A stretch of 64,000 nt of DNA, taken from Amylostereum areolatum (lineage: Eukaryota > Basidiomycota > Agaricomycetes > Russulales > Stereaceae). Below the pieces are notes generated by a model. That model was not told the origin of the DNA. It did not search any database and saw only the letters and a program-made list of their open reading frames with translations. Positions 5,570-35,039 of the stretch are shown in pieces (position 1 is the stretch's first letter; each line of letters begins with the position of its first letter). Where the stretch lies: assembly GCA_012932865.1 (NCBI GenBank), contig SAXG01000005.1, positions 806,001 to 870,000 of the forward strand. Direction: 5' to 3'. The position numbers and the translations under genes were made by a program.

Positions 5570-5695
5570 TGCGCATCTTGAAGCAAGCCCCTTCTGACAA
5601 AGGGCGGCGGAGCCGGAATTGACTTTGAAAGAAGGCGGCTTGTTCCGAACCTAACGCACGCCCCAGTCGTCCTTCGGCCAAAGGTAGCCTCGTGA
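5570..5695 (+). repeat. Dispersed repeat, copy 3
   Basis: Begins GCGCATCTTGAAGCAAGCCC and continues through GGCTTGTTCCGAACCTAAC to GGCCAAAGGTAGCCTCG. The first part pairs with 4205-4278 in inverted orientation. The last part matches 35061-35100 in direct orientation, except for an internal stretch missing there. It lies about 70 bp outside element A1. Confidence 0.55.
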
Positions 5696-5759
5696 CCAGG
5701 CTGATGGAGATTACCAAGCATGACGCCGACCGTCCGGAATGAGAGCGCAAGCGGAGTCT

Positions 5760-5764
5760 CATTC
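5760..5764 (+). repeat. Target-site duplication CATTC (left half of A1)
   Basis: CATTC directly precedes the 5' LTR of A1. Its partner is not next to A1's own 3' LTR. It lies at 21418-21422, where the minus strand reads CATTC, next to the 3' LTR of A2. The partner exchange marks an inversion. Confidence 0.9.
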
Positions 5765-6187
5765 TGTCACGGATCGCTCCATTTCTCTCTTCGTTTGCAG
5801 ACCTCGTACACGCGACGTGTCACGGCACATGACTTTCCTTCGCATCACATGCTTCAATGATGTCATTGCCCGGACTTCCGAGCGGGGTTCCGCATCCTTA
5901 TCTATGACATCACTGCTCTGGACCTTCGTCCTCCGCCCCATGACTCCTTTCCTATTGTTCCCCCCGCTCACACCACTATCGCATCGCATCGCACCATCGT
6001 TCCCACTTGTATATAAGGACAGCGTTTCTCTTCCCTTTTCCCTAGACTGTCCATCTCGTCATACGGTACTGTAGCGCACGTTGCACTACCCTAGGCCTGA
6101 CACTCTCAAATCCATCTGTTCTCTCTTGCTCCTCCCATCGTCGCGACTTAGGCGGTTCCATCGGCCTCATAAACTGTGTTTCTGACA
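5765..6187 (+). repeat. A1 5' LTR (variant 1)
   Basis: 423 bp, starts TGTCACGG and ends TCTGACA. Diagnostic variant-1 bases include AGGCCTGACACTC and AACTGTGTTTCTGACA. It differs from the LTR at 21423-21845 at only one position that I can see, but at many from the LTR at 19965-20387. It contains TATATAAG at 6010-6017. The transcript start is expected near 6044. Confidence 0.95.
6010..6017 (+). promoter_or_regulatory. LTR TATA box
   Basis: TATATAAG lies in the LTR. About 33 nt downstream is TAGACTGTCCA (6043-6053), where the transcript should start. The same layout occurs in all family-A LTRs and, in different sequence, in the LTRs of B. Confidence 0.75.
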
Positions 6188-6189
6188 CC

Positions 6190-6200
6190 TGGACAGTCTA
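6190..6200 (+). other. Self-priming primer-binding site of A1
   Basis: TGGACAGTCTA begins 2 nt after the 5' LTR and is the exact reverse complement of TAGACTGTCCA at 6043-6053 in the LTR, at the predicted 5' end of the transcript. This is the Tf1-type self-priming arrangement, in which the RNA's own 5' end, not a tRNA, starts minus-strand DNA synthesis. Confidence 0.8.
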
Positions 6201-6204
6201 CCCC

Positions 6205-6209
6205 TACGC
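6205..6209 (+). repeat. Target-site duplication TACGC (B, left)
   Basis: TACGC precedes B at 6205-6209 and follows it at 13728-13732. A2 and A3 have a single copy at the corresponding place, which confirms B inserted into A1. Confidence 0.95.
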
Positions 6210-6667
6210 TGTCAGCAACGACTAGTGCGACAGCACCAAGTTACGACAAAGCTGACAGAGGAAGAGGACGACAGAGGGGAGCCGATCAGACACGGCGGCA
6301 GACAAGGGAAAGCAAGCAAAGTCGGTAGAATTGACTAGCTCGAGATAAGGAATATGTACAGCGAGAGCGAGCCTTATATACACAAGAGGAGAGAGACTTA
6401 GGTAAGCAACCAATACACGGCGATCAGTAAGCAGACCAAGTATAAGTAAGCAGTCGTATGTAAAAGAGCATAGCATGAGTCAGTATCGTACAGCATGAGT
6501 CAAGAGAAAGGAGTCAGACCCGGACCGAGATGAGTCACGTGGGTCCGGGCGGGATATAGATGAGCCGGGTCCGGGCCAAGGTGGAGCCGGACCTGGTGAT
6601 AAGTCGATAAGTCCTAAAGCGTGTAACCGATGTAAAGTAAAAAGAAAATTATAGACCGTTCATGACA
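6210..6667 (-). repeat. B 3' LTR
   Basis: 458 bp; on the plus strand it starts TGTCAGCAACG and ends TCATGACA. It contains a TATATAAGG element on the minus strand (plus-strand CCTTATATA near 6372). It differs from the partner LTR by one indel and two substitutions. The pol stop codon lies just inside this LTR. Confidence 0.95.
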
Positions 6668-8180
6668 TCACCCCTTCCTTAGATTCGACGTCCTCGTCGT
6701 AATCAGATCCAGTTTCTTCCTCCGACAGGAGTTTCCAACGATTAAGGCGTGCAGGTTTCGGGGCACCCGGATGTTCACGGTGGAAGTCGTCAATGCGTTT
6801 CTTGGCCTTCTGGAGATTGGTGAGAGGCTCCCAAGTATTGTCATTGTCTGGGTAGCCTTTCCATTTGACGAGGTACTTGAAGCCGCGACCAACCTTCTTG
6901 GAGTCTATAATCTTTTCGACCTCATAGACTTCCTCTCCTTGGACTAACTCTGGCGGTGGAGGTGTAGGTGCTTTCTGATTGTCAAAGGCGGGACCGTTGT
7001 GTGGAGATAGGAGGGACTCGTTGAAGACCGGATGTTTTCGTGACCAGGATGTAGGGAGGCGAAGCTTGTAAGCCGATGCTCCGACTTTTTCCAGGATTTC
7101 GAAAGGACCAAAGCGCTTGTCATCTAGCTTTTGCATAGGACGTGCCGTTTTGATTACGGTTTGGCCATCTCTGGTCTTGGCTTCCAGCCAGACGAAGTCG
7201 CCAATTTTGTAATCTATTGGTTCGTCCTTCTTGCGATCGTAAAAGCGCTTTTGATCGTCCTGTGCTGCCTTTAGCGCAGAGCGGGCTTCCTCATAGATGT
7301 CTCGCATGCGTTGTGCAAACTCGTTCGCCGATGGGTTGTCTGTCTCACGTCGAGGGTTTGTCCCCAGGTAGAGTTCCCGACCATAGTTGGCAAAGTTGGG
7401 AGACATCCCAATCGAACTATGGACCATGTTGTTGAGTGCAGTCATGGCAAGTGGGAGGTAACGTGTCCAATTGTCCTGTCGTTGATTGACGAAGATGCGA
7501 AGGTAGTTTTCCATGGTCATGTTGGAGCGTTCGGTCTGTCCGTCCGTCTGAGGGTGATACGCCGTGGACGGGTTCCCTTCAATGCCTAACAGTTGGAACA
7601 ATGCTGTGGTGAATTTGGAGACAAACACGCTGCCACGGTCGCTGACGATCTTTCTAGGAATTCCATGATGGGGGACCACCTCGCGTAGGTACTCGAAGGC
7701 GAGTTCGTCCTCCGTTAGGTCTTTGGTCGTGGCCCAGAATACAACCTGCTTGGTACCCATGCAGTTCACATTGCAGATGGCGTCTTTTCCATCCGAGACT
7801 GGGAGCGGCATGACAAAGTCGATGGATACATGCTCCCAAGGCGCTTGTGGCGGGTCATGTGGGTGGAGTGGAGCGGCAATGCGATCATGTCTAATCTTGG
7901 TACGTTGGCAGGTCTCACATCCTTCAACATATTTCCGGACATCGTCTCTAATGGCAGGCCACCAGTAGTTGCGCGTGATGAGCTCATGGGTCTTGTATCG
8001 TCCTGGGTGACCGACAAGCGGGCCGTCATGATGAGCTTGGGTGATGTCTGCACGGAGTCCTTTGTCTCTTGGGACATAGAGTCTGTGTTGCCAGGTGATC
8101 GTTCCATCTGCGTGTTCCAGCCATCCCTTCACTTTGAGTGCTAAGGCGTGTTCTACTGCATGGTCCTCGGAGTAAGGTAG
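6660..8180 (-). CDS. pol: B pol, 3' part: integrase and chromodomain
   Basis: Integrase inserts the cDNA copy into the host genome. The zinc-binding region (H..H, then CETCQRTK) is followed by the catalytic core, with D in SIDFVMPLP, D in IVSDRGSVF and E in DGQTERSN. The C-terminus is a chromodomain (VEKIIDSKKVGRGFKYLVKW ... NTWEPL), which in related elements binds modified histone H3 and directs insertion to heterochromatin. The region around CNVNCMGTK in the core differs from the usual VVDRLTK pattern. The frame is offset from the upstream pol part at about 8175, where ERIQEAT changes into the LPYSEDHAVEHA frame. This is a disabling indel or a sequencing error. The last codons (GVMS) run across the polypurine tract into the LTR. 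Confidence 0.9.
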   Translation of the reverse strand, partial: LPYSEDHAVEHALALKVKGWLEHADGTITWQHRLYVPRDKGLRADITQAHHDGPLVGHPGRYKTHELITRNYWWPAIRDDVRKYVEGCETCQRTKIRHDRIAAPLHPHDPPQAPWEHVSIDFVMPLPVSDGKDAICNVNCMGTKQVVFWATTKDLTEDELAFEYLREVVPHHGIPRKIVSDRGSVFVSKFTTALFQLLGIEGNPSTAYHPQTDGQTERSNMTMENYLRIFVNQRQDNWTRYLPLAMTALNNMVHSSIGMSPNFANYGRELYLGTNPRRETDNPSANEFAQRMRDIYEEARSALKAAQDDQKRFYDRKKDEPIDYKIGDFVWLEAKTRDGQTVIKTARPMQKLDDKRFGPFEILEKVGASAYKLRLPTSWSRKHPVFNESLLSPHNGPAFDNQKAPTPPPPELVQGEEVYEVEKIIDSKKVGRGFKYLVKWKGYPDNDNTWEPLTNLQKAKKRIDDFHREHPGAPKPARLNRWKLLSEEETGSDYDEDVESKEGVMS

Positions 8181-10413
8181 CCTCCTGAATCCGCTCAATG
8201 AAGACATTGTCAGGTCCATTGGTTATAATTCCTGCATGGTTGAGGGCGCGAAAGAGTTCTGGTTTCAGGAGGACAATGTTTTCATTGTCTTTCTCCCCCT
8301 TCTCAAGGCCCGCTAGTCGGGAAATAGCATCGGGTTTACCCATTGTTTTGCCAGGCTTGTGGAGTAGCGTACAATGATACTCTTGTAGCTCCGTTAACCA
8401 TCGTGCTTGTCTCCGATTTAGCTTCTGCGCCTTGCGGAAGTACGTGAGATTGCGATGATCCGACCAGATTTCAAACTCCTGTCGTGCCCCCATGAGGTAT
8501 TGTCTCCATTCCTCTAGCGCCGTCATGATAGCCAGTAATTCCTTGTCATAAATCTCATAGTTCCTCTCAGCTTCGCTGAGGGACTTTGAGAGGAAGGCGA
8601 CCGGGTGCCATTTGCCATTGTCCTGTTGTTGCGAAAGTACCGCGCCCGTGGCATAGTCAGAGGAGTCCGCCTCGACACGGAACTGTCCATCGTCTGTAGG
8701 GATTGCTAGAACTGGCTGCGATGTTATACGTCGCTTGAGTTCCTCAAAAGCCTCCTGCTGTGGGGTGTCCCAGACCCATTCCGTCTTCCCAGTGAGTTTA
8801 GTCATTGGGTGAGCAATGCCACTGAAGTCCTTGATAAAGCGACGGTAGAAGTTGCAAAAGCCCAAAAATGATTGAAGTTGTTTCTTCGTTTTGGGGGCTG
8901 GCCAATTGGTGATTGCCGCGACCTTTGCTGGATCCATGCGAACCCTTCCTCCGCCAACAATCATGCCCAGGTATTCGATTTCTGCCTTCTCAAACTCGCA
9001 CTTTTCTGGCTTCAGATAGAGTTTGTTTTCTCGCAGGATCCGAAGGACCTCCTTGACTATTCGACGATGTTCTTCTAGCGTATGTGTGAAGATGAGGATG
9101 TCGTCCAAATAGACGACCACGACTCCTTGGTGGATCAAGTCTTTGAACAGGTCATTCATCATGGCTTGGAACGTAGACGGGGAGTTGGTGAGTCCAAAGA
9201 ACATGACCGTAGGCTCGTAGAGACCTTTGTTCGTGCGGAATGCAGCTTTCCACTCGTCCCCTTCTTTAATCCGAACATTGTTGTACCCCCATCGGACATC
9301 GAGCTTGGTAAAGTGCCGTGCTCCTTTAAGTTTGTCAACCAACTCTTGGATGAGCGGGAGCGGGTAACGGTTCTTTATTGTCATCTCATTGAGCTTTCGA
9401 TAGTCCTGTACAGGACGTAGCGAGCCGTCTTTTTTCTTGATGAAGAAGAATGGGGAGGCCATGGGTGATTTGGACGGTTGAATCCGGCCAGATCTCAGGT
9501 TCTCTTCCAGAAAGGCGTCCAGTTGCTTCTGCTCGTCCAATGTGAGGGGGTAAACTTTGCAATCAACCGGTTTGAAGTTAGGAGTGAGCTCAATGGCGTG
9601 GTCCCATGGGCGTCGCTCAGGGAGCTTGTCGAAGTCGTCTTTGTCAAAGATGTCCTTGAATTCGTGGTACGCCGTTGGGACTCGCTCAGAGAAGGTCTGT
9701 TCCTTTTTCTTAGCGTGCTCTTCAATTGCAATGTCCGATGCATGGGTCCGGATGTGGTATGTCGCTTTGTAGCCATCCCAGTCGAAAGCAAACAGCTGCT
9801 CGTCCTTTTCCATGTGGACTGGCTCTTCCTCCTCCTCTTCATCCTCATCGATATTGAGGAGGGGAGGGGGACGAGAGCAGCTGATAGGGCATCGGTCAAA
9901 TTCAATTGACCCGGATTTCCAGTCGATGTGAGGGTTGTGCTTCTTTAGCCACTCATGTCCAATGAAAAGGTCCGTATCTCCTAGATTGGAGACCGCCAGG
10001 TCAATGTTTTCTTCATGGTCTTGAATATTTAGGCGAAGTGTGACATATTCCGTAATGGGACCTCCTGTGTTGAGAGTGCCGTCTGCATTTCGTACTGGGA
10101 TTGGGCGAGCAGTCCGTCGCGTGGGGATGTGATTTTCCTGCACAAACTTCGTGTTGATACACGAGCCAGTGCAACCACTGTCCAGGAGTGCGAGAGCTTT
10201 GACAATGCGTTTGGAATCTACCACCAGTTGTGTGGGAATGACCGTTTGTTCCTTGGCGCTGGCGGAGCGTATGAACTGCATAGGAGTGGCGAGCTCTAGT
10301 AGAGCTTGACATGCTAACTCGTCTCCCATGCCAGTTATTTCCTTGATGGCTTCATAAGTAGCCTCGTCACGGCGTCGGTGGTGTGTCCAGATGCGAAGGA
10401 TTGCAATTCGCAC
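8150..10413 (-). CDS. pol: B pol, 5' part: protease, reverse transcriptase, RNase H
   Basis: Aspartic protease (ALLDSGCTGSCIN), reverse transcriptase with FIKKKDGSLRPVQDYR, GLTNSPSTFQ and the active site YLDD (in VVYLDDILIFT), then RNase H (VEADSSDYATGAVLSQ, ERNYEIYDKELLA). The ATG at 10413 is only the first in the open frame. Gag ends at 10835, and the stretch 10414-10834 is not in a common frame with either, so how pol is expressed is unclear. Between them lies an imperfect tandem repeat (about 10531-10615) that may be a later expansion and may have shifted the frame. Confidence 0.9.
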
Positions 10414-10530
10414 TTTCGGGTTTGTCTTCCCTTAAGCGACGAAGCGTCCATTGAGCCGTTCCAGGTGCCATATAACATGATTTGGGCGCCGTGCCCCTTC
10501 CATCGCACGGCGTTGTCCCTGACTTCACAG

Positions 10531-10615
10531 GGTCCATATCCAAAACCGAGTCCGTATCCAAAGCCGTATCCAAAACTGAAGCCGAAACCGAAGCCATATC
10601 TAAAGCCGAAGGCTC
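10531..10615 (+). repeat. Imperfect short tandem repeat between B gag and pol
   Basis: Runs of the words CCAAAACCGA, CCGTATCCAAA and AAGCCG are repeated with variation. On the minus strand in one frame this reads as (L/D)DTDSVLD-like repeats. It sits where the gag-pol junction should be. Confidence 0.6.
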
Positions 10616-10834
10616 ACAAATCGAGGCCTGAGTATCTAAAATAACAACGGGACGCGTGCCCGTACCGATAGAGTCCGTAAGAGAAGTCATAATGGGGATA
10701 TCCCCCGTAGTAGTACAGTCCCGAATCAACAATGCGCATATGTAAACGAGAACCAGGCCACCGAGGCGCCACAAAACCAGACGAGCGAGAAACAGAAACT
10801 TGGGCTTCAGATGCCGTGTACATCGTCAGCCCCC

Positions 10835-12091
10835 TCAAAAACCCTCCTTCTTCTCCTCCACCTTTGGCTGAGCTTGAAGCGCGTCCATCACGCTTTTCCG
10901 ATCTTCGGCCGACAGGCTCCTAGCCCAGGCGGTGGGCGTCTCGAACGTCTGTGCTCGAGCCTCCCGCTTTGGTGGTTCCGTGTACCGGTCCCTTCCCCAC
11001 ATGTCTCGGATGTTCTTTACGTCCACCCTGCAGTCCCGCACCTGGTGGCCATTCTGTCCGCAGCGGAAGCATCGCCCCTTGATGTCGACACGGTTGACGT
11101 CCATCGGCTGACCTTTGCCACCGTGCACCGTGCCGGTTCCATCGCGGCGCCATGGGACCTGCCCCCCTTGTTGCCCATTGGACGATCCTTGTCCTTTGGG
11201 TTTTTGGTTCTGCACGGGTCCACTGCGCTGGGTCTTAAGGTCCTCCCGCTCCTGTCGCAGACCGTCGATCAGGATGATGCGCTCTTTGAGGTCCTCATAT
11301 TTCTGAGGAACGTGACCGCTGTCGTAGATGGAGTCGATGGTCCGATAGTAGACGTTGTGTTTGAGCAGCTGCATGAGGTGGATAGGGTCCTGCGCCGTGG
11401 AGTATCCTGCCTTTCTTGCGAGTTGCTCGAACTTGGCGAAGTATTCATGGGCAGTGGTACCCTTCGTCTGTTTGAACCCGTCCAGTTCGACTGCGGCACG
11501 GTGCTGCTCATTGACGTCGGTGAAGGCCCCTTTGAGTGCTTTGTGGAAGTCCACCCAGGCGACCATGGCTCCATTGGCCAAGTGTGCATCCTCATACTCG
11601 GCCTTCCAGGTGCGTGCTGCCTCCCCCGTCATGTAGGTGAGAATGAAGAGGACTTTGTCCTTGTCCGTCACGAGGTCATCCTCAGCAGCTCGCATGTATT
11701 CCTCGCACGACCGCATCCAGTCATTGAAGTCCTCTCGTTTCCCAGAGAAGCCTTCAGGAGTTTTCGCGTGGACTTTCTTTCGGGGGGGTCTGGCGGCGGC
11801 GGCGGCTGGGGCACTAACAGTGACCGCAGGGGGGTTGACGGTGATGGGGGGGGCCGTGACGTTGACGGTGGGGGGTGGCAGGTTGAGGGCAGCAACAAGC
11901 ACGGCAGGGATGGCGACCCATTGGCCATTTACTTCCATGAGCCAGGCATCGTCGGTGCCGTTATTCATGTGTTGGATGGGAGAGCCAGTTTGGCCGATGA
12001 CAATGTTCCATGTTCCACCGATTTCGGTGCAGTTGGCGAGTTCGGCGGGGAGAGGGGGTTGGGGGTCGGTGCGGATCCACTGGGCAGCCAT
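10835..12091 (-). CDS. gag: B Gag (nucleocapsid-type structural protein)
   Basis: 418 aa. A Pro/Val-rich N-terminal region is followed by a retrotransposon Gag core (FNDWMRSCEEYMRAAEDD ... AARTWKAEYE ... FKQTKGTTAHEYFAKFEQ). Near the C-terminus is a CCHC zinc knuckle, CFRCGQNGHQVRDC, that would bind the element's RNA. Gag assembles the virus-like particle. The frame is open without a stop for a further 102 codons upstream of this ATG, up to the stop of the leader ORF at 12398. Confidence 0.9.
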   Translation of the reverse strand: MAAQWIRTDPQPPLPAELANCTEIGGTWNIVIGQTGSPIQHMNNGTDDAWLMEVNGQWVAIPAVLVAALNLPPPTVNVTAPPITVNPPAVTVSAPAAAAARPPRKKVHAKTPEGFSGKREDFNDWMRSCEEYMRAAEDDLVTDKDKVLFILTYMTGEAARTWKAEYEDAHLANGAMVAWVDFHKALKGAFTDVNEQHRAAVELDGFKQTKGTTAHEYFAKFEQLARKAGYSTAQDPIHLMQLLKHNVYYRTIDSIYDSGHVPQKYEDLKERIILIDGLRQEREDLKTQRSGPVQNQKPKGQGSSNGQQGGQVPWRRDGTGTVHGGKGQPMDVNRVDIKGRCFRCGQNGHQVRDCRVDVKNIRDMWGRDRYTEPPKREARAQTFETPTAWARSLSAEDRKSVMDALQAQPKVEEKKEGF

Positions 12092-12397
12092 GATTGGTTC
12101 GTCGAGGTCGGAGAAGTCTTCGTCGGTGACAGGCGGTAGGGCGGAGGCGGCGATGAGGTTGAAGTCGGCTTCAGTGAGGTCGTCTTGGCTTTCGTTGGTG
12201 AAGTACCAACTGATGCCACTTGTTTGGGTTGCTACGAAGGCGACTTCGACAGTGGTGTCTCCGAGTTGGACAAAGAAGTCGTTTCCTCGTTCAGTGAAGC
12301 CTAGAGGGAGGGGATATATGTAGCAGTTTTCGTCCTCAACGTCGGTGTCGGAGTCAGAACTGGAGTCGGAGCCGTTGAGTCCGAACGAGGGAATTGT

Positions 12398-13006
12398 TTA
12401 TAAGTGGGTGAGGTCGATGACCTCTGGCTGGGTGAGGTCGATGACCTCTGGCTCTGGTGTGGGGCTGGGGGTGTTGCCTGGTGTAAGGAGGCGGTGGGTG
12501 TGTCGAGTGTCTACTGGTATTTTCTCGTTGGGCGCGTAGAAGGATTTTGGGGGTTGCTCGAGTTTGTAGCGGTAGGTGACGTATGGGCAGGAGTAGACGT
12601 AGAGGTTTCCGTTTCCTTGTTCGCTTATTTTGAGGCGATAGAAGTGGATGTCTATGATGGAGTCTTCAAGTTCTTCTGCACCGAGGGCGACCTTCCAATT
12701 GTGCCAGGCCCAAGGGTCTTTAGATTCGTTGATGAGGGAGATGATAGCGTCGTGGCTGATGGGGATGAATTCTTGTACTTGCGAGCGCCAATCTTCCATG
12801 CACGAGCCCCCAGTCGAAATGGTTACTCTGTGCGGCAAGGGAAGATTTTGTCGAGGGAAGGTGGTTCTGTTATGAGATCGCAAGACGGTCTGCCTCAGTC
12901 TTCTCGACCTGTTGGCTGTCTCTTCGTCTAGGGGACACGAGCCCAAAGACTTCCTAAACCGCTTTCCTTTCGCCGCTTTTACTCGTTTCCTACACCAAAG
13001 GTGCAC
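12398..13006 (-). CDS. B leader ORF, 202 aa, with tandem SUMO-interaction-like motifs
   Basis: Unknown function. It lies between the 5' LTR and gag, in the same frame as gag and separated by a single TAA (12398-12400). The central part (DAIISLIN ... SKDPWAWH ... CPYVTYRYKLEQ) resembles the family-A leader ORF (KDPWTAHG ... APTYHTYLIQ), so the two share an ancestor. The C-terminus repeats PEVIDLT twice through a 24-bp tandem DNA duplication. VIDLT next to acidic residues is the classical SUMO-interacting pattern. N-terminal residues are basic (RKRVKAAKGKRFRK), possibly a nuclear signal. Confidence 0.6.
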   Translation of the reverse strand: MHLWCRKRVKAAKGKRFRKSLGSCPLDEETANRSRRLRQTVLRSHNRTTFPRQNLPLPHRVTISTGGSCMEDWRSQVQEFIPISHDAIISLINESKDPWAWHNWKVALGAEELEDSIIDIHFYRLKISEQGNGNLYVYSCPYVTYRYKLEQPPKSFYAPNEKIPVDTRHTHRLLTPGNTPSPTPEPEVIDLTQPEVIDLTHL

Positions 13007-13258
13007 CTTCTACTGTCACCTCTGAGCTTTCAACTCCTGGTATTGGAGAGTCTCGAGTAGGTGTAACGTTTCGAGGAAACGTCAAGCCGGCACCGGTATA
13101 CGTGCGCACGACCACAATGTCAGGGTAACGAGTCGCGTACTCTGGGGGCAACGGTCTAGGGCGGCACGGGGGAAGAACAAGGTCAGTACCAGACGGGTAC
13201 TACTACTACTACGCTACAGTACGTAGGGACGGTCGTAGGGTGGTGCAAGAGTAAACAG

Positions 13259-13268
13259 ATCTCGAGCT
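13259..13268 (-). other. Self-priming primer-binding site of B
   Basis: On the minus strand AGCTCGAGAT begins 2 nt after the 5' LTR. It is the reverse complement of ATCTCGAGCT in the LTR (plus-strand 13398-13407), which lies about 34 nt downstream of TATATAAGG. The layout is the same as in family A. Part of the match (CTCGAG) is itself a palindrome, which weakens the case slightly. Confidence 0.7.
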
Positions 13269-13270
13269 TA

Positions 13271-13727
13271 TGTCAGCAACGACTAGTGCGACAGCACCAA
13301 GTTACGACAAAGCTGACAGAGGAAGAGGACGACAGAGGGGAGCCGATCAGACACGGCGGCAGACAAGGGAAAGCAAGCAAAGTCGGTAGAATTGACTAGC
13401 TCGAGATAAGGAATATGTACAGCGAGAGCGAGCCTTATATACACAAGAGGAGAGAGACTTAGGTAAGCAACCAATACACGACGATCAGTAAGCAGACCAA
13501 GTATAAGTAAGCAGTCGTATGTAAAAGAGCACAGCATGAGTCAGTATCGTACAGCATGAGTCAAGAGAAAGGAGTCAGACCCGGACCGAGATGAGTCACG
13601 TGGGTCCGGGCGGGATATAGATGAGCCGGGTCCGGGCCAAGGTGGAGCCGGACCGGTGATAAGTCGATAAGTCCTAAAGCGTGTAACCGATGTAAAGTAA
13701 AAAGAAAATTATAGACCGTTCATGACA
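13271..13727 (-). repeat. B 5' LTR
   Basis: 457 bp, same ends as the 3' LTR. TATATAAGG on the minus strand corresponds to plus-strand 13433-13441. Confidence 0.95.
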
Positions 13728-13732
13728 TACGC
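13728..13732 (+). repeat. Target-site duplication TACGC (B, right)
   Basis: Right-hand copy; A1 internal sequence resumes here. Confidence 0.95.
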
Positions 13733-14327
13733 CTACCTCGCACCCCTCTCTCCATCTACCTCTGCCGTCTCTACGACGTTAAAAACTCCCACCACGGACC
13801 TCCCGAACGCACCGGTTTTCCTCCCGTTCAACGGAAAGCCGATCACCCCCCGCGACGACGCACCACTCCCCTACCCTTGGTCCGACGCCGTCACCGTCAA
13901 CTGCCTCGTCCCTGTACAGAACCTCTGCAAGAAAGATCCCTGGACCGCGCACGGCCTCAACTTCCGCATCTTCGAGTGGAGGTGGCACAAGGATCACGGT
14001 ACTGTCGTCCTCGCCCTATACGTCCGGATCACTACGTGCATCAACGTAGATCTCGAACGCCTTGAATTCACCCTCCACGCCCCCACCTACCACACATACC
14101 TCATCCAAGACGCCCCCAACCCGATCCTCCAAACCAGTTTCACCTCTGTCTCCCAGTTTAACCGCCGGACCCCCGAATCCACCCCGCCACCAGTCCTCCG
14201 TCCCACCATCAAGGGTAAGACCCTTCGTCGCCGCCACCACGAACACAAGATCCGCCAGGCAGTAAAAGCCGGCTACCTCACCAAGAAACTCCTCGGCCGT
14301 CGCCCCATCGCGGCGGACTTCTTCTAG
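13733..14327 (+). CDS. A1 leader ORF, about 200 aa, unknown function
   Basis: Reading frame between the 5' LTR and gag. The only in-frame ATG (13722) is inside B, so it did not exist before B inserted. In A2 and A3 the frame is open upstream through the primer-binding site into the LTR and has no ATG near here. Visible features are WSDAVTVNCLVPV, KDPWTAHGLNFRIFEWRWH, APTYHTYLIQ and a basic tail (GKTLRRRHHEHKIRQ). It ends in a TAG (14325-14327) that is conserved in A2 and A3. After the TAG the same frame stays open through gag. A 66-nt GT-AG intron (14262-14327) could remove the TAG in frame, with the TAG itself supplying the acceptor. It is related to the leader ORF of B. Confidence 0.55.
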
Positions 14328-14918
14328 ACCATCATCACGTCCTCCACAGCCCCTCGTCCCCCCACCCCGAACCTTCCCCCAGGCGTCTTTCGAGACTACT
14401 GTCCCGAAGAATACTATATCCTCACCTCGCAGCAGACTAAGGAATCCGTACGTTGGCTGCACGACGAACCAAACCGGCAACGTCGAGACTGGTACTTCGA
14501 CGACCGCGACGAACAACCCTACGTCGAAGAATCAGATTTTGCCACCGCTGCGGACGTTCTACAGCGCTTCCTGAACCCCCCTCCGACCAACTCGCCCCCA
14601 CCCCGTCGACGTACTGTAATCGAAGTCCCAGAAGGGATCAACCACAACGACACAACCGGGAAGTGGTACGCCTATAGACGGAACAAGAACGGAACCCCAG
14701 GACGATCAGTAGTTGAGTGGCAGCCCACTTCGTTCAGTCCCGTCCAAGATCACTGGTCGTGGCATCATAACCAGCAATTCCTCACCCCCGCCGACTTCCT
14801 TGTCGCAAAACAAGTTGAGGACGAAGTTGAAGAAGCAGAAGAACGCCGACGAGAAACCCTACGCCGCCTTGATCAAGAACTCGCCCAATCCCTCACCGTC
14901 CCCCTCCCCTTCGACAAG
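14328..14918 (+). CDS. A1 open frame between leader stop and Gag ATG
   Basis: 197 codons without a stop, in frame with both the leader ORF and Gag. It contains acidic and aromatic stretches (ESVRWLHDEPNRQRRDWYF) and a short charged helix near the end (KQVEDEVEEAEERRRETLRR). It is probably translated as an N-terminal extension of Gag, by stop readthrough or splicing, or not at all if translation starts at 14919. Confidence 0.4.
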
Positions 14919-18900: not shown

Positions 18901-20032
18901 CACCCCATGTACAACGAAGATCACCAGCGATGGCACGGCCGACATTCTCTTCGATAAGGTATACCGACACTATGGCTTAGCAGACAAGATCATCTCGGAT
19001 CGTGGACCCCAATTTGCTGGACAGGTGATGCGTACACTCAACGAGAAGCTCGGGATCAAGTCCGCCCTCAGCACAGCGTATCACCCACAGACAGACGGCC
19101 AAACCGAACGCGAGAACCAGAACCTCGAGCAGTTCCTGCGAGTATTCTGCAACTACCGTCAAGACGACTGGGTGAAGTGGTTGCCCTTCTTCGAGTTTTC
19201 TCACAACTCTCGCACCCATGCAGCTACTGGAAAGGCTCCCTTTGAAGTCCTCTACGGCTTCCTCCCCAAGATGTACCCATCCGTAAACCCGTCCTCAAAG
19301 GTCCCTGCAGTTGAAGAACGCCTCCGTCAACTTGAAGAAGTCCGACAAGAGATCAAAGCCAGCCTTGCCCTCGCATCTGACTTAATGAAGCACTACAATG
19401 GTGACACGATCAGCAAATCGACACTGTTCGCCGTTGGAGACAAGGTCTGGCTCGAAGGCAAAAACCTGAAGATGACGAGGCCGAAAGCTAAGCTTGCTGC
19501 CAAACGATTTGGACCCTTCGAGATCGTTGACGTCATTAGCCCAGTGAACTACCGCCTGAAGCTGCCGAAGACGTGGAGAATCCACCCAGTCTTCCATGCT
19601 TCGCTGCTCACCGCATACAAGGAGACAACGGCACATGGTCCAAACTATGAACAACCGCCGCCTGACCTCGTTGATGACAAAGAAGAATATGACGTTGAAG
19701 ACATCATCGACTCGAAGCCGACCCGCAACAAGAAAGGCATACAATACCTCATCAAGTGGGTAGGCTATCCTGACTCCGAGAATACCTGGCTCCCTCGCTC
19801 CTCGCTCTCAAAAGTCACCGACATGATCGACGCCTTCCACAAACGCCATCCAAACGCGCCCCGCCCTGTGTGTTCCCTCGGCATCTCCTTTGACGATTTT
19901 CTCGCATCTACCCTTGCAGATGACATCGCGCTCCAGGCGAAAGCGCATCTTAAAGGGGGGGTAATGTCACGGATCGCTCCATTTCTCTCTTCGTTTGCAG
20001 ACCTCGTACACGCGACGTGTCACGGCACATGA
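15945..20032 (+). CDS. pol: A1 Pol: protease, RT, RNase H, integrase, chromodomain
   Basis: Open in the -1 frame relative to gag; the frame is already open from 15473 inside gag. Protease LLDSGAEG at about 16165; reverse transcriptase with PVQDYRELNKGTVKNEYPLP and active site YMDD at about 17494; RNase H VEVDASDFATGG at about 17935. Integrase has an H..H and GCATCQSTK zinc site (about 18610-18740) and catalytic D (STDFIVELP), D (IISDRGPQF) and E (DGQTERENQ). Last comes a chromodomain, VEDIIDSKPTRNKKGIQYLI to ENTWLPRSSL (about 19690-19820). The frame does not stop before the LTR: it passes through the polypurine tract (LKGGVMS) and ends inside the 3' LTR at 20032. No internal stop or frameshift, unlike A2 and A3. 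Confidence 0.95.
19952..19961 (+). other. A1 polypurine tract
   Basis: AAAGGGGGGG ends 3 nt before the 3' LTR. It primes plus-strand synthesis and is also translated as part of Pol. Confidence 0.8.
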
Positions 20033-20387
20033 CTTTCCCTTGCATCACATGCTTCAACGACGTCATTGCCCGGACTTCCGAGCGGGGTTCCGCATCCTTA
20101 TCTATGACATCACTGCTCCGGACCTTCGTCCTCTGCCCCATGACTCCTTTCCTATTGTTCCCCCTGCTCGCACCACTATCGCATCGCATCGCACCATCGT
20201 TCCCACTTGTATATAAGGACAGCGTTTCTCTTCTCTTTTCCCTAGACTGTCCATCTCGTCATACGGTACTGTAGCGCACGTTGCACTACCCTAGACCCCG
20301 GCACTCTCAAATCTATTGTTTCTTCTCGCTCCTCCCATCGTCGCGACTTAGGCGGTTTCATCGGTCTCATAAACTGCGTTTCTGACA
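19965..20387 (+). repeat. A1 3' LTR (variant 2)
   Basis: 423 bp. Variant-2 bases (AGACCCCGGCACTC, AACTGCGTTTCTGACA) match the LTR at 28103-28525 apart from about two C/T differences. By sequence and by its flanking ACGTT it belongs with the A2 5' LTR. Confidence 0.95.
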
Positions 20388-20392
20388 ACGTT
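20388..20392 (+). repeat. Target-site duplication ACGTT (partner at 28526-28530)
   Basis: ACGTT follows the 3' LTR of A1. The minus strand next to the A2 5' LTR (28526-28530) also reads ACGTT. These five bases are part of a splice donor, GTACGTT, in the ancestral DUF6589 gene. Confidence 0.9.
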
Positions 20393-20437
20393 CTTATTTT
20401 TTGAACTATGTTTTTCACGCTTACACTTGGCGGATAG

Positions 20438-21215
20438 GACTACTACAAAGCTCATGGTAGCGGCGCATCATGGGAATGGCTCGGGACCATCGCTCCTTGC
20501 GTGGAGATCTTGCGCAAGCTCGCTACCCAGGTCCATGGCACCCTCGGCTCCAAGCAGGGCAACATTCATGCCGATGCTGATCTCACGGAAGACATTGATG
20601 AACTCATGGGCAGCCTTGCACACCACCGGGTTTATGTGGTGGAACATGGCCGCCATTTCGAAGCCAATGACCCCACCACCGCCGTCGACGTCATCACAGC
20701 AGGTTACAACAAACTTACATACGGTGCCCCTTCGCCTCTTCAGCAGTTCAACGACGCCTTTGCGATTCTCCAGCAGCGTCGAAGAATTCACCCGCTCGTC
20801 GGTGCCAGTACCAGTGAGCACGCTACAGCTCTGCCCACTGTCGATGGTAAGCCGATACATCCTTATCAGCCATGATTACAATGTTCATACATCTACTCGT
20901 ACAGTTGAGATGCGAGATGTGTCATTGGTCCCTGATCCTAACTCCAGCTTTGCCGATGAGTCGACAATGTCATCAGCATCCTCCGACACATCCTCCGACA
21001 CATCCTCCGACACATCGGAAGAAGCGGCGATCGCAGCGGCCATGGACAACATACCCTCACAACCTGATCTTGATCTATTAAGTGGGGAGGATGTGGCATT
21101 GGACATGGATGGAGGGTATTGGCTTGATGAAGATGCTGAGTCTGACATAGAGTTTGACGAAGAGAATAATCCTGACAGTGATATTGACGCTATTTCTTCT
21201 GACAATGATGACTAA
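20438..21215 (+). pseudogene. DUF6589 gene, displaced 3' exons
   Basis: 3' half of a DUF6589-family gene whose 5' half is at 28533-31392 on the opposite strand. Exons are 20438-20846 and 20905-21215. The intron tail before 20438 (20388-20437, ending GGATAG) has lost its donor to the rearrangement. Exon 4 encodes HGSGASWEWLGTIAPCVEI and RKLATQVHGTLGSKQGNI, matching the conserved end of the DUF6589 domain. The last exon adds an acidic tail with a 12-bp tandem repeat (SSDT units) and ends in DNDD. Joined to the 5' exons across the A2 insertion, the coding length is an exact multiple of three (1,158 aa, or 1,138 if the 60-nt in-frame intron is removed). In its present place it lacks a promoter and start. 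Confidence 0.85.
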
Positions 21216-21311
21216 ACAGATATGTACATCACTTGTATCTATTTAGAAGCCGGGAAACGAGGGTAACAAGTGTCGGGAGCCACTTGACGGTGCAGGAGGA
21301 AGCATAGCTTT

Positions 21312-21387
21312 GCGCGCAAAACATGAAATTTCGCTAAGTCGGGATCAGGATTGGCCCCCCGCCAAAACCGCCCCAAGTGTGCCCAGG
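21312..21387 (+). repeat. Candidate terminal inverted repeat, left copy
   Basis: 76 bp containing GAAATTTCGCTAAGTC and GCCCCCCGCCAAAA. It aligns without gaps to 34951-35026 with 12 mismatches (about 84%). As assembled the two are direct repeats. Once the inversion of 20388-21422 is undone they become inverted repeats that flank the DUF6589 and RecQ-like genes. Confidence 0.65.
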
Positions 21388-21417
21388 CTGTATGGAGATT
21401 CCACGGCAGGCCGGCTG

Positions 21418-21422
21418 GAATG
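21418..21422 (-). repeat. Target-site duplication CATTC (partner at 5760-5764)
   Basis: The plus strand reads GAATG, so CATTC on the minus strand follows the 3' LTR here and pairs with the 5' flank of A1. Confidence 0.9.
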
Positions 21423-21845
21423 TGTCAGAAACACAGTTTATGAGGCCGATGGAACCGCCTAAGTCGCGACGATGGGAGGAGCAAGAGAGAACAGATGGAT
21501 TTGAGAGTGTCAGGCCTAGGGTAGTGCAACGTGCGCTACAGTACCGTATGACGAGATGGACAGTCTAGGGAAAAGGGAAGAGAAACGCTGTCCTTATATA
21601 CAAGTGGGAACGATGGTGCGATGCGATGCGATAGTGGTGTGAGCGGGGGGAACAATAGGAAAGGAGTCATGGGGCGGAGGACGAAGGTCCGGAGCAGTGA
21701 TGTCATAGATAAGGATGCGGAACCCCGCTCGGAAGTCCGGGCAATGACATCATTGAAGCATGTGATGCGAAGGAAAGTCATGTGCCGTGACACGTCGCGT
21801 GTACGAGGTCTGCAAACGAAGAGAGAAATGGAGCGATCCGTGACA
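21423..21845 (-). repeat. A2 3' LTR (variant 1)
   Basis: 423 bp. It matches the A1 5' LTR at all but one position seen, and differs from the A2 5' LTR at many. Confidence 0.95.
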
Positions 21846-24800
21846 TTACCCCCCCTTTAAGATGCGCTTTCGCCTGGAGCGCGATGTCATCTGCAAGGGT
21901 AGATGCGAGAAAATCGTCAAAGGAGATGCCGAGGGAACGCACAGGGCGGGGCGCGTTTGGATGGCGTTTGTGGAAGGCGTCGATCATGTCGGTGACTTTT
22001 GAGAGCGAGGAGCGAGGGAGCCAGGTATTCTCGGAGTCAGGATAGCCTACCCACTTGATGAGGTATTGTATGCCTTTCTTGTTGCGGGTCGGCTTCGAGT
22101 CGATGATGTCTTCAACGTCATATTCTTCTTTCGTCATCAACGAGGTCAGGCGGCGGTTGTTCATAGTTTGGACCATGTGCCGTTGTCTCCTTGTATGCGG
22201 TGAGCAGCGAAGCATGGAAGACTGGGTGGATTCTCCACGTCTTCGGCAGCTTCAGGCGGTAGTTCACTGGGCTAATGACGTCAACGATCTCGAAGGGTCC
22301 AAATCGTTTGGCAGCAAGCTTAGCTTTCGGCCTCGTCATCTTCAGGTTTTTGCCTTCGAGCCAGACCTTGTCTCCAACGGCGAACAGTGTCGATTTGCTG
22401 ATCGTGTCACCATTGTAGTGCTTCATTAAGTCAGATGCGAGGGCAAGGCTGGCTTTGATCTCTTGTCGGACTTCTTCAAGTTGACGGAGGCGTTCTTCAA
22501 CTGCAGGGACCTTTGAGGACGGGTTTACGGATGGGTACATCTTGGGGAGGAAGCCGTAGAGGACTTCAAAGGGAGCCTTTCCAGTAGCTGCATGGGTGCG
22601 AGAGTTGTGAGAAAACTCGAAGAAGGGCAACCACTTCACCCAGTCGTCTTGACGGTAGTTGCAGAATACTCGCAGGAACTGCTCGAGGTTCTGGTTCTCG
22701 CGTTCGGTTTGGCCGTCTGTCTGTGGGTGATACGCTGTGCTGAGGGCGGACTTGATCCCGAGCTTCTCGTTGAGTGTACGCATCACCTGTCCAGCAAATT
22801 GGGGTCCACGATCCGAGATGATCTTGTCTGCTAAGCCATAGTGTCGGTATACCTTATCGAAGAGAATGTCGGCCGTGCCATCGCTGGTGATCTTCGTTGT
22901 ACATGGGGTGGTAACCACCATCTTGGTGAGGCGATCGACCACGACATTGACGGCGTTATAGCCTTCGCAGTCAGGGAGTTCGACAATGAAGTCAGTGGAG
23001 ATGACGCCAAATGGTCGATCGGGCACTTCGTTTGGGATCATGTCGACGTGGGGTCGGCTGCTCTGTGTCTTCGTCGACTGGCAGGTTGCGCATCCTGCTA
23101 CAAAGTCGCGGACAAAGACAGACATGCCAGGCCACCAATATTCACGACTCACAAGCTCGTAAGTCTTGAAGCGACCGGGGTGTCCAGCCAGGGGTGATTC
23201 ATGGTACATTTTGACAATGTCGCATCGCAACTCGTCATCCGCAGGGACGTATACCTTTCCTCTAAACAGGACCAGGCCTTCTTCGTAGTTCCACTCTTGA
23301 AGGTTCTTGACGAGTGTACGTGGTCCGTTTCGTAAGATGGCGTCCAGGGCTTGAACGACCTCGATGTCCTTGGTTTTGCAGTCGCGGATACGTCGTCGGA
23401 GTTCGACATCACCGAGGGAGGTTACTGCTCCTGGTCTTGTTGCGCGTACTTGGAAGTACTTGGGGTCAAGCAAGACGCGCTCCTTGTTGTCGTTTTCAAC
23501 ACCATCCTTGTGATCGGGTCGTCGAGACATTGGATCTGGGCGGTGGGAAATTCCTGGTTTATGAACGAGCGAGAAGTCAAATCGAGTGAGGAATAGAGCC
23601 CAACGTGCCTGTCGGCGGCTCAGCTTCTGTGCCGTCTTGAAGTGCTCCAGGTTCTTGTGATCTGTCCAGATTTCGACGGTGTCGGGGGCGCCTTCGAGGT
23701 AGTGGCGCCAGGCTTCAAGCGCACGGATGATCGCAAGCAGCTCCTTGTCGTAGATGTCGTAGTTCCGTTCCGGTTCCGATAGGGCCTTGGACAGATACGC
23801 CACTGGGTGCCAGTGACCGTCGTCGCCTTTCTGCGAGAGTATACCTCCAGTAGCAAAGTCCGAGGCATCGACTTCAACGAGGTAAGGCTTCTTTGGGTCA
23901 GGCATGACCAAGACGGGGGAAGAAGTAAATGCAGCTTTCAGTGCGTCAAACGCAGTTTGGCAGTCCGTCGACCAGTCCCATGTGCAGTCCTTCTTTGTCA
24001 GATCAAATAGGGGCCGTGCAACCTTGGAGAAGTCCTTGATGAAACGTCGGTAGAAGTTGCCAAAGCCGAGGAAGGATTGCACATCTTTGACCGTTCGTGG
24101 TGTCGGCCAGTCCTGAATACCTGCTACCTTGACGGGGTCCATAGCGATCTTGTCGTGCAAGATGATGAGTCCGAGGTATTCGACAGAGTCTTGCTCAAAG
24201 ACGCATTTCTCCGGTTTGAGGAAGAGGTCGTTGTCTTGCAAACGCTGCAGAACCTGCCGCACTATGGCACGGTGTTCGTCCATGGTGCGAGTGAACACCA
24301 AGATGTCGTCCATGTAGATGATGACCTTGCCCGAGTCGATGAGATCCTTGAACAGTTCATTCATCATTGCCTGAAATGTTGCAGGGGAGTTCATAAGCCC
24401 AAAAAACATCACCGTAGGTTCAAAGAGACCGCGATTCGTCTTGAACGCAGCCTTCCACTCGTCGCCTTCCTTGATGCGGACATTGTTGTAGCCCCAGCGA
24501 ACATCCATCTTGGAGAAGATCTTTGCACCTTTGAGGCGGTCGACAATTTCAGAGATCAGTGGCAATGGGTATTCATTCTTGACAGTGCCCTTGTTTAATT
24601 CTCGATAGTCCTGTACGGGACGCAGCTTTCCATCCTTTTTCTTCACAAAGAAGAACGGACTCGCCTGAGGTGACTTCGATGGGCGGATATAGCCCTTCTT
24701 CAGGTGGTCATCGAGGAAGGTGTCGAGTTCGATCTGCTCGGAAGGTGAGAGGGGGTAGATCTTGCACGGTTTGGGTTCAAAGCCGTCTTTCATGTCGATA

Positions 24801-25246
24801 GCATGGTCCCATGGTCGTCGGTCAGGAAGTCGCTCGGAGGTTTTCTTGTCGAATACAGGCGCAAAGTCGCGGTACGGCGGGGGGACTAAGTCTTCAAAGG
24901 TTTGCGGGCGTGCGTTCTCTTTTGAATGCTCTGCAAGCTCCTGCGCTTTTGTAAAGCCCGCGCGGATGGGTATTGCATCTGGATTAGGACCGTCGGTTTC
25001 AGGGAGGATTCCGGCGCGGCGTAGTCCATTGATCTCCCAGTCTCGGAATACCATGGGCCGCTCAGTCGTCGTCTTCAGTGAAGAGTCGTGCGGGTAGAGG
25101 GGAGCGATGGACCGTGCGGACGCGAACACCTTTGACTCTGCGTGCAGGAATAACATAAGTGGGGACTGGGGTCCAGGACACATATGTCGGCTCTGGGAAG
25201 GGATCGTCCATGACGAGAGGTGTCCTCGGGGTTTTACCTGCTTCAA
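21846..25246 (-). pseudogene. pol: A2 pol, RT to chromodomain, frameshifted
   Basis: Same domain order as A1 pol. A T inserted in a run near 22134 shifts the frame just upstream of the chromodomain, which continues in another frame (22215 to 21778, running into the LTR). An A inserted at 25064 separates the protease part from the reverse transcriptase part. All catalytic motifs are still present (YMDD, DD35E). Confidence 0.9.
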
Positions 25247-26129
25247 CCTTACGCTGTGATTGGACCGATGATGGTTTCCGTGGCTTGGTTGCGAGGTTCG
25301 TCACAGGAGGTTTGGACAGAGTACACGAGGGAGGGCAGCGGAGCATGTCAACACGGTCTCGTTTCCAGTCTATGGTGGGATTGTGCTCGTCGAGCCAGTC
25401 TGTTCCAAGGATCATGTCATGATCGCCGATGTCGGTGATGAAGAACTCAGCTTCTTCCTCATGGTACGCCCTTGAATCTTGCGAGTATATCCGGATCCGC
25501 TGGGTCGTTGTGTCGCGTACCCAGCCCATGACGTTCTCGGTGCCATCCACATTACGCACGGGGAACGGGTTTTCTAGTTTTCTTGTGGTGAGCTTCTTGC
25601 GTTCAACGAAGCTTCGGTTCAGGATAATTCCTTCTGCGCCGCTATCAAGCAGCGCGTCTGCGCCGATTTCTCTTTTGGTAACTCGTCCGATCAGCTTGAC
25701 TTTGAGCGTGATCGATGGTGTTTGCCTGTTCTTGGTGACAGTAGACAGATACAAACACGGGGGATACGATTGCTCACAGGTATGCATGGATGATAATACA
25801 GCGAAACGATTCGACGATGATACCAAAAGTCCTTTGCCTCCACCAGACGACGCGACTGGGGGGCGTTTCAAAAATCCTGCGATTCCAGGATGTCCTTCAA
25901 CAGCGCTACTGCCTGCTCCTTGCCTTCCGCGTCCAGATCCTTCAGCTGGCGAGTGATCGCCGCGATGGTTTTGGATGGGTCGGGAGCCGCTTTCGCAGTG
26001 GACGGAGCCGTGTTTGTCGGCAGGGGAGGGGCCTTGGACCCAGTCTCTACTGCGCCCACCCGTCGCGCGCTCGAGTCGCGGTTGGGGCAGTCGCGGGAGA
26101 CGTGACCGGCTTGTCGACACATGAAGCAC
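25062..26129 (-). pseudogene. pol: A2 pol, protease part
   Basis: Protease LLDSGAEGIILNRSF followed by the region up to the 25064 insertion. It overlaps the end of gag in the -1 frame, as in A1. Confidence 0.85.
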
Positions 26130-26894
26130 TTGCCTTCGCGCATCATCTTTGCGCGCTCGTCGTCCGTCAGCTTTGCAGGGCGGGTCGAGGTGTTGGTGAA
26201 GGCGCCGACCCGGCGCGACGAGGAGTCAGTTGGTCGAACCGTTCGAGGTGAGCGCGACAGCCCCCTTGGACTGACTGCTCTTCCTCTCCGGGTTCTCTTC
26301 GAGCCACTGGTGGTTGATGCGGCGGGCGCGATCCTTCCACTCCGCGAGCTTGGTGGGGAACGGGTACGACCGGGCCACCTGCTTGCCGAGGTCACGCTGA
26401 AGTCCCTTCTTGAAAAAGTGGATCAGCGCCTCGTCGTCGTACGCTGACATGGTTGCCAGCATCTCAAACTCGGTGATAAAGTCAGTGACGTCCCGGGTGG
26501 TCATTGCGAGCTCGTTGATCTTACGCTGAGCCTCTATCTTCGGATCGACGGGCACGAAGTCTTTGCCAAACCTCTCGAAGAGCTCTTTGTAGGAGCTATA
26601 GTGGAGTGTTGGGGGCGTGGGGTCGAGGGTGTCGGCGTCTTCCTTCTCGTCTTCGTCGGCGAAGAGTTCCATGCGGCGATGCGTGGCCCAGGCTTTCGCC
26701 GTGTCGTCCTCCATCAGGCTGAGGAGGAGCATCATCTTGGCGTCATCTGTGGCATAAACATCTTTGTTAACGCGCAGGAACATGCGGAGCTCGAGGGAGA
26801 ACCGGAGGGTGTCGCGTCTATCGCCTTTGAATGGCTTTGGCTTGGGGCCGATCTCCCGCTTGGAGACGGCAGGTTTGGATTCGGCGTCGGACAT
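25868..26894 (-). pseudogene. gag: A2 gag, one frameshift
   Basis: As A1 Gag, but an inserted A at 26228 (plus strand) breaks it between the Gag core and the zinc knuckle. The zinc knuckle CFMCRQAGHVSRDC and the T5 slip site before the stop are intact. Confidence 0.9.
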
Positions 26895-27485
26895 CTTGTC
26901 GAAGGGGAGGGGGACGGTGAGGGATTGGGCGAGTTCTTGATCAAGGCGGCGTAGGGTTTCTCGTCGGCGTTCTTCTGCTTCTTCAACTTCGTCCTCAACT
27001 TGTTTTGCGACAAGGAAGTCGGCGGGGGTGAGGAATTGCTGGTTATGATGCCACGACCAGTGATCTTGGACGGGACTGAACGAAGTGGGCTGCCACTCAA
27101 CTACTGATCGTCCTGGGGTTCCGTTCTTGTTCCGTCTATAGGCGTACCACTTCCCGGTTGTGTCGTTGTGGTTGATCCCTTCTGGGACTTCGATTACAGT
27201 ACGTCGACGGGGTGGGGGCGAGTTGGTCGGAGGGGGGTTCAGGAAGCGCTGTAGAACGTCCGCAGCGGTGGCAAAATCTGATTCTTCGACGTAGGGTTGT
27301 TCGTCGCGGTCGTCGAAGTACCAGTCTCGACGTTGCCGGTTTGGTTCGTCGTGCAGCCAACGTACGGATTCCTTAGTCTGCTGCGAGGTGAGGATATAGT
27401 ATTCTTCGGGACAGTAGTCTCGAAAGACGCCTGGGGGAAGGTTCGGGGTGGGGGGACGAGGGGCTGTGGAGGACGTGATGATGGT

Positions 27486-28102
27486 CTAGAAGAAGTCCGC
27501 CGCGATGGGGCGACGGCCGAGGAGTTTCTTGGTGAGGTAGCCGGCTTTTACTGCCTGGCGGATCTTGTGTTCGTGGTGGCGGCGACGAAGGGTCTTACCC
27601 TTGATGGTGGGACGGAGGACTGGTGGCGGGGTGGATTCGGGGGTCCGGCGGTTAAACTGGGAGACAGAGGTGAAACTGGTTTGGAGGATCGGGTTGGGGG
27701 CGTCTTGGATGAGGTATGTGTGGTAGGTGGGGGCGTGGAGGGTGAATTCAAGGCGTTCGAGATCTACGTTGATGCACGTAGTGATCCGGACGTATAGGGC
27801 GAGGACGACAGTACCGTGATCCTTGTGCCACCTCCACTCGAAGATGCGGAAGTTGAGGCCGTGCGCGGTCCAGGGATCTTTCTTGCAGAGGTTCTGTACA
27901 GGGACGAGGCAGTTGACGGTGACGGCGTCGGACCAAGGGTAGGGGAGTGGTGCGTCGTCGCGGGGGGTGATCGGCTTTCCGTTGAACGGGAGGAAGACTG
28001 GTGCGTTCGGGAGGTCCGTGGTGGGAGTTTTTAACGTCGTGGAGACGGCAGAGGTAGATGGAGAGAGGGGTGCGAGGTAGGCGTAGGGGTAGACTGTCCA
28101 GG
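27486..28102 (-). CDS. A2 leader ORF
   Basis: Same sequence as the A1 leader ORF without element B. The frame is open from the 5' LTR through the primer-binding site to the conserved TAG at 27486-27488. No ATG occurs near its start, which suggests that translation, if any, begins inside the LTR-derived part of the RNA or at a non-ATG codon. Confidence 0.5.
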
Positions 28103-28525
28103 TGTCAGAAACGCAGTTTATGAGACCGATGAAACCGCCTAAGTCGCGACGATGGGAGGAGCGAGAAGAAACAATAGATTTGAGAGTGCCGGGGTCTAGG
28201 GTAGTGCAACGTGCGCTACAGTACCGTATGACGAGATGGACAGTCTAGGGAAAAGAGAAGAGAAACGCTGTCCTTATATACAAGTGGGAACGATGGTGCG
28301 ATGCGATGCGATAGTGGTGCGAGCGGGGGGAACAATAGGAAAGGAGTCATGGGGCGGAGGACGAAGGTCCGGAGCAGTGATGTCATAGATAAGGATGCGG
28401 AACCCCGCTCGGAAGTCCGGGCAATGACGTCGTTGAAGCATGTGATGCAAGGGAAAGTCATGTGCCGTGACACGTCGCGTGTACGAGGTCTGCAAACGAA
28501 GAGAGAAATGGAGCGATCCGTGACA
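28103..28525 (-). repeat. A2 5' LTR (variant 2)
   Basis: 423 bp, nearly identical to 19965-20387. Followed on the plus strand by AACGT (28526-28530), that is, ACGTT on the minus strand. Confidence 0.95.
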
Positions 28526-28532
28526 AACGTAC

Positions 28533-35026: not shown

Positions 35027-35039
35027 CGTTACCCAGTGT

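Follow-up and report, generated by a model that had tools for sequence, protein, structure and literature searches.

A probable crossover inversion between two oppositely oriented LTR retrotransposons inside an AcademH-like DNA transposon of Amylostereum areolatum

Two described systems come closest to the locus reported here, a pair of oppositely oriented long terminal repeat (LTR) retrotransposons in a 64,000-nucleotide stretch of the genome of the fungus Amylostereum areolatum (contig SAXG01000005.1, positions 806,001 to 870,000, of assembly GCA_012932865.1), which we call the window. The first is inversion 2z3 of Drosophila buzzatii, described as lying between inverted copies of the element Galileo that have exchanged their target duplications, with single targets in the non-inverted chromosome. 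Those copies are chimeras whose ends are >99% alike between copies and about 6% apart within a copy, and nested insertions in them have matched duplications (PMC2775673). The second is the flip/flop region of Saccharomyces chromosome XIV, where inverted repeats of several kilobases are reported to be kept near-identical, with inversion between them (PMC9731477).

The two retrotransposons of the window share with the Galileo 2z3 pair, as far as its description goes, their opposite orientation, exchanged target duplications, chimeric copies, single empty targets and a nested insertion. Galileo is a DNA transposon, and 2z3 is a natural polymorphic inversion between chromosomes with a crossover mapped to 141 bp (PMC2775673), whereas our pair consists of LTR retrotransposons separated by a 1-kb spacer inside another transposon and is known from one assembly. 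Our two copies also have a tract of about 6 kb in common, where a single switch point is described for Galileo 2z3. The Saccharomyces flip/flop region, according to its description, spans 24 kb with 15 host genes, is recurrent and is known in both orientations (PMC9731477); our locus is seen in a single orientation in a single assembly, and its repeats are retrotransposons. The type of rearrangement is therefore already known from the signature of Galileo 2z3, and the present locus, judged by its sequence, is a new, small and clear case of it. The 1,035-bp spacer (20388-21422) is inverted relative to uninterrupted copies of the surrounding transposon, and this was likely brought about by one crossover between the two inverted retrotransposons, accompanied by gene conversion over about 6 kb.

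The window contains no N; the genome assembly comprises 57.13 Mb in 182 contigs. Comparison of the window with itself yielded one 7.1-kb LTR retrotransposon in three copies, namely A1 (5765-20387, forward strand), which is interrupted by a nested retrotransposon, A2 (21423-28525, minus strand) and A3 (37513-44613, minus strand). A3 serves as a local control, with the duplication GAGAC matched on both sides. We use A1 and A2 for the chimeras as now assembled, and E1 and E2 for the original insertions. Ty3/gypsy elements with a chromodomain encode protease, reverse transcriptase (RT), RNase H, integrase and chromodomain in that order, make a 5-bp target duplication and have LTRs that begin with TG and end with CA. 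A1 and A2 show this domain order, duplication length and LTR ends. The A1 interior (13733-19964, forward strand) encodes gag, protease, RT, RNase H, integrase and chromodomain. The A2 interior (21846-28102, minus strand) has three one-base insertions without counterpart in A1 or A3, and its open frames are shorter than those of A1; these insertions could be real damage or sequence errors.

The target duplications of A1 and A2 are crossed. A1 is flanked by CATTC on the left and ACGTT on the right, and A2, read on the minus strand, by ACGTT and then CATTC. The duplication assigned to E1, CATTC, thus stands at 5760-5764 (forward strand) and 21418-21422 (minus strand), and that of E2, ACGTT, at 20388-20392 (forward strand) and 28526-28530 (minus strand). 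The probability that both 5-bp matches would cross by chance is about 1e-6. The LTRs cross in the same way. The A1 5' LTR (5765-6187, forward strand) and the A2 3' LTR (21423-21845, minus strand), assigned to E1 as its 5' and 3' LTRs, show 1 difference over 423 positions, and the A1 3' LTR (19965-20387, forward strand) and the A2 5' LTR (28103-28525, minus strand), assigned to E2 as its 3' and 5' LTRs, show 2. Within an element the LTRs are 20 substitutions and 2 gap columns apart in A1, and 17 substitutions and 2 gap columns apart in A2. There are 22 variable columns among the four LTRs (gap columns counted), of which 19 sort crosswise, 0 sort within elements and 3 are changes in a single LTR. 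Two homologous copies in opposite orientation stand at the two breakpoints, and both are chimeric. A preliminary description of the window had proposed a crossover inversion from these features. Its coordinates for the pair were right to the base, the crossed flanks were found as it claimed, and its estimates of one and about two differences in the crosswise LTR pairs, with many within each element, agree with our counts. Alignment pairs the LTR at 5765 with that at 21423 and the LTR at 19965 with that at 28103, just as it had proposed.

The ancestral orientation of the spacer can be read from other copies of the host transposon. In the window this AcademH-like element spans 5685-35080 and is interrupted, its pieces being 5685-5764, 20388-21422 (inverted) and 28526-35080. 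A genome search with the spacer found, besides itself, C170:61636-62647 (97%), C145:124087-125121 (92%) and, at the very beginning of contig C18, a 148-bp piece (100%); three more matches were to a repeat of 75 bp situated toward the opposite end of the host transposon. In C170 and C145 the order is the reverse of 28526 onward, then the spacer forward, then the reverse of 5685-5764. Each joint overlaps by exactly 5 bp, and these are ACGTT and CATTC, each present once, with no loss or gain at the breakpoints. The C18 piece has the E1 site unoccupied and is likewise uninverted. Since C170 and C145 carry the opposite spacer orientation, that of the window is derived (or misassembled). The crossover inversion proposed earlier is supported, and is strengthened by this opposite orientation and by the single target sites.

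We considered whether the uninterrupted sites in C170 and C145 were alleles of the locus and rejected this; they are other copies of the transposon (paralogues), 91% and 99.7% identical over 28526-35080. No second allele was found in the assembly, where the flank at 48000-56000 matches only itself. The occupied locus is present once, in one orientation, and the ACGTT junction occurs once. C18:1-16763 and C170:62500-79260 share 16.8 kb at 99.8%, and C18 starts inside the transposon; this is probably a case of an allelic or duplicate contig.

The arms of the inverted pair are homogenised. The interiors of A1 and A2 have 8 differences in about 6.2 kb, and A3 differs from both at 99 columns. Between the switch points located below, A1 and A2 differ at 5 of 6,038 positions, compared with 21 of 423 in the adjoining LTR (p ~4e-21). 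A1 is also the nearest interior to A2 (10614 bits, the next being 10350) among the 26 of 1019 candidates that were scored. The E1 and E2 LTR types are about 5% apart, and each has relatives elsewhere in the genome, where a first look at the family LTR gave 915 candidates, 40 of which were scored. E1-type LTRs occur in C66:830884-837985 and C148:102656-109756 and at C34:1026096, and E2-type LTRs in C34:566421-573522 and at several places on C13, among them C13:774010.

We located the changes of type by comparison with C66:830884-837985, which was read at its interior ends (831 and 771 bases). Toward the 5' end, A1 shares E1 states with C66 at element positions 401, 413, 485, 527 and 530. After 530, A1 equals A2 at every column read to 1226, and C66 differs from both at 10 columns (626-1226). 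The A1 switch interval is element 531-625 (13818-13912, forward strand), with the E1 type to its left and the type shared with A2 to its right. Over 772 columns at the 3' end, C66 has 31 differences from A2 and 31 from A1, and A1 and A2 have 2 between them. The last departure of C66 from both is at 6663, and the A2 LTR differs from that of A1 from 6755 on. The A2 switch interval is element 6664-6754 (21772-21862, minus strand); the LTR is of the E1 type, and interior to the switch the sequence is of the type that A1 also has. We considered whether the type changes right at the edges of the LTRs, but the E1 states continue to element 530. In the 5' part, the copies nearest to A2 (C34:566867, C13:783680 and C13:774455, tied; 40 of 443 candidates scored) have E2-type LTRs, so the shared middle type there is that of E2.

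The insertion that interrupts A1 is itself a complete LTR retrotransposon but belongs to a different family (6210-13727, minus strand; LTRs 6210-6667 and 13271-13727). Its LTRs are 2 substitutions and 1 gap apart (3/458), and its target duplication, TACGC, is matched at 6205-6209 and 13728-13732. Matching duplications are thus found in three local controls: A3, the nested element and the host transposon. The A1 and A2 interiors (5/6,038) are less diverged than the nested LTR pair (p 0.015), which fits an exchange between the interiors after the nested insertion.

From these observations we infer the following order of events and mechanism. The AcademH-like transposon would have inserted first, E1 and E2 would then have inserted into it in opposite orientations, and the third retrotransposon would have inserted into E1. 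Afterwards E1 probably suffered a break or gap for which E2 served as the repair template, and the repair was resolved as a crossover. Its outcome would be E1 sequence only at the outer ends, E2 sequence in the middle and a flipped spacer. On the left, the converted tract ends 86-180 element bases past the nested insertion, at which homology to E2 stops and which would block further pairing.

Several points weigh against this reconstruction. The order of the pieces is known from the assembly alone, and near-identical arms of about 6 kb are where an assembler can choose the wrong orientation; the preliminary description had warned of assembly error, and the warning stands. If the three one-base insertions in A2 are sequence errors, they could mean weak polishing just here. 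The E1 interior type is taken from one relative, C66, of which just the two interior ends were read. Toward the 3' end, the shared type is without a close match (1327 bits for the next after A1, at 1362; 40 of 416 candidates scored), and with no close relative of any LTR type there, the case for E2 as donor applies to the 5' part only. When interior divergence is compared with that of the E1 and E2 LTR pairs, p is 0.064 for all changes and 0.015 for substitutions only. The LTRs of the nested element (3/458) differ more than those of E1 (1/423), inside which it sits; the changes are too few for this to be significant (p 0.38, using a slightly larger nested count). Finally, 5 of 24 other family copies have unmatched duplications and may be further recombinants or misjoins.

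That last count comes from reading the flanks of 27 other family elements and one lone LTR, a non-random sample taken from match lists. Four of the 28 were set aside, one as a lone 3' LTR (C120) and three with one end not found (C34:1001651, C45:723626 and C95:2607675). The copies with both ends have matching 5-bp duplications in 19 of 24 cases, 17 by script and 2 by eye (C45:132320 and C158:83079). C111:7546 and C137:13415 have the same flanks and probably represent a single locus twice, in which case the count is 18 of 23. This suggests that the assembly mostly crosses the 7.1-kb repeat correctly. No partners for the five unmatched elements were found among the 27 elements examined. One of the five, C34:1019422-1026518, is a full-length copy with unlike LTR types at its ends and the unmatched duplications CATTG and CCTTT; it may be a further recombinant or a misjoin. 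The others are C106:31864, C96:75001, C150:203619 and C107:416902.

The strongest rival to a real inversion is a flip in the assembly, with both insertions real and in their original arrangement and the 1-kb spacer turned by the assembler. A wrong path through the repeat, whose interiors differ at just 5 sites between the switch points, would by itself produce both LTR crosses. The single occurrence of the occupied locus and the unmatched duplications in the five other copies would also agree with such a flip. However, the 1.43-Mb contig passes through this repeat three times, and a first look at the genome gave 915 LTR candidates for it (40 scored), so the data must usually cross 7.1 kb, and the duplications match in most of the copies elsewhere (19/24) and in neighbouring A3. 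Even under a flip, the identity of the interiors would still need gene conversion or birth as a mosaic. We consider an assembly flip unlikely on balance and put it no lower, since inverted elements that are almost identical over 6 kb are more difficult to assemble than the average case.

If the inversion is real, it might also be a continuing one, and the preliminary description had suggested that it could flip back and act as a reversible switch for the gene it cuts. The upstream part of the gene cut by E2 is an open stretch at 28680-29846 (minus strand) that matches positions 3-331 of the DUF6589 profile (E 1.5e-102), and the spacer holds the last coding exon or exons. When two predicted introns were spliced from the uninterrupted C170 copy, the DUF6589 match grew from 3-331 (343.9 bits) to 3-410 of 410 (466.5 bits), the last 44 matched residues coming from the exon that lies in the spacer. 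The two introns of this gene model were picked by eye, guided by the family consensus; ranking by frame length gave top choices in the wrong frame. In the model, the E2 target ACGTT forms bases 3-7 of the second intron, and the E1 target lies beyond both possible frame ends, 20875 in the model and 21215 with a further intron seen by eye. With E2 in an intron and E1 behind the stop, a back-flip would leave the 7.1 kb of E2 inside the DUF6589 gene, and the reversible switch is therefore not supported. We also considered and rejected the possibility that the inversion cuts a host gene: the flanks cease to resemble C170 and C145 at 5685 and 35080, which places the cut gene in the DNA transposon. 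We think it improbable that the locus is a live flip/flop, in which the pair would keep homogenising its 6-kb arms and turning the last coding exon or exons of the transposon, with both orientations present in nuclei or strains.

The shared interior could also have arisen before any crossover. Template switching during reverse transcription can put new E1-type LTRs on an E2-type interior. A switch between an E1-type RNA and the RNA of E2, or of a near-identical sister, could thus have produced a mosaic at birth, followed later by a simple crossover somewhere in the 6 kb. The position of the switch points near both LTRs would agree with this. However, a second switch would be needed at 531-625, and the donor RNA would have to come from the very element that lies 1 kb from the insertion site or from an unseen sister, no other copy among the 26 candidates scored being as close. 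The interiors are also less diverged than the LTR pairs, which argues weakly in the same direction, and we regard a mosaic birth as quite improbable. Two unrelated non-reciprocal events could have made separate chimeras and given the crossed signs without any inversion. Elements whose duplications do not match and for which no partner turned up are indeed present (C34:1019422, with its unlike LTR types, and four others). But here the crossing involves both duplications and both LTR pairs of two neighbours, and the spacer runs opposite to that in C170 and C145, which makes this reading very unlikely.

The host transposon is 7.7 kb long and has three genome copies at >=91%, with distant relatives (64-66%) on C94 and C111. 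The resemblance to C170:55086-62722 and C145:117543-125196 breaks off at 5685 and 35080 (35079 for C145). The window copy is flanked by a 9-bp target duplication, GGCCAAAGG, at 5676-5684 and 35081-35089 (both forward strand); the corresponding duplications are GGATCAAAT in C170 and the 10-bp GATAGGGAGG in C145, where the left end of the transposon is without its first T. AcademH transposons have terminal inverted repeats, and the ends here, TAGgCTCGgaACCAG and TAGcCTCGtgACCAG, are imperfect inverted repeats with 12 of 15 positions alike. A piece of a RecQ-like helicase is predicted at 32180-33388 (forward strand; E 1e-12), with a Pfam score barely above the cut-off. AcademH elements are described as carrying a helicase gene, making 9- and 10-bp target duplications and being low-copy in Basidiomycota (PMC10045372, PMC10799480). 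The host transposon resembles them in its helicase, its 9- or 10-bp duplication and its inverted-repeat ends, and on these sequence features we class it as AcademH-like; the link through DUF6589 is a tentative one of this analysis's own. The closest relatives of the transposon protein are metagenome entries, and the named ones belong to Basidiomycota, such as Lactarius, Cubamyces and Trametes. Sequence comparison of DUF6589 with solved structures gave nothing below E 0.03, Foldseek gave no E below 0.001, and no mention of DUF6589 was found in the literature searched.

A 1,448-bp repeat lies just outside the host transposon, at 4206-5653. It has at least 5 other full-length copies at 99-100%, a longer partial copy on C111 and fragments (40 of 48 candidates scored). 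Its ends, TAGGTTCGGAGCAAGCC and GGCTTGTTCCGAACCTA, resemble those of the AcademH-like element, of which it is perhaps a non-autonomous relative.

If the inversion is real, the locus would preserve, in unusually legible form, a single recombination event between retrotransposons. The target duplications are crossed, the ancestral order is kept in sister transposons, and the ends of the shared tract are mapped to intervals of about 90 bp. It would also caution against dating an assembled element by the divergence of its own two LTRs, which can give a misleading age: the LTRs of A1 differ by 20 substitutions and those of E1 by 1.

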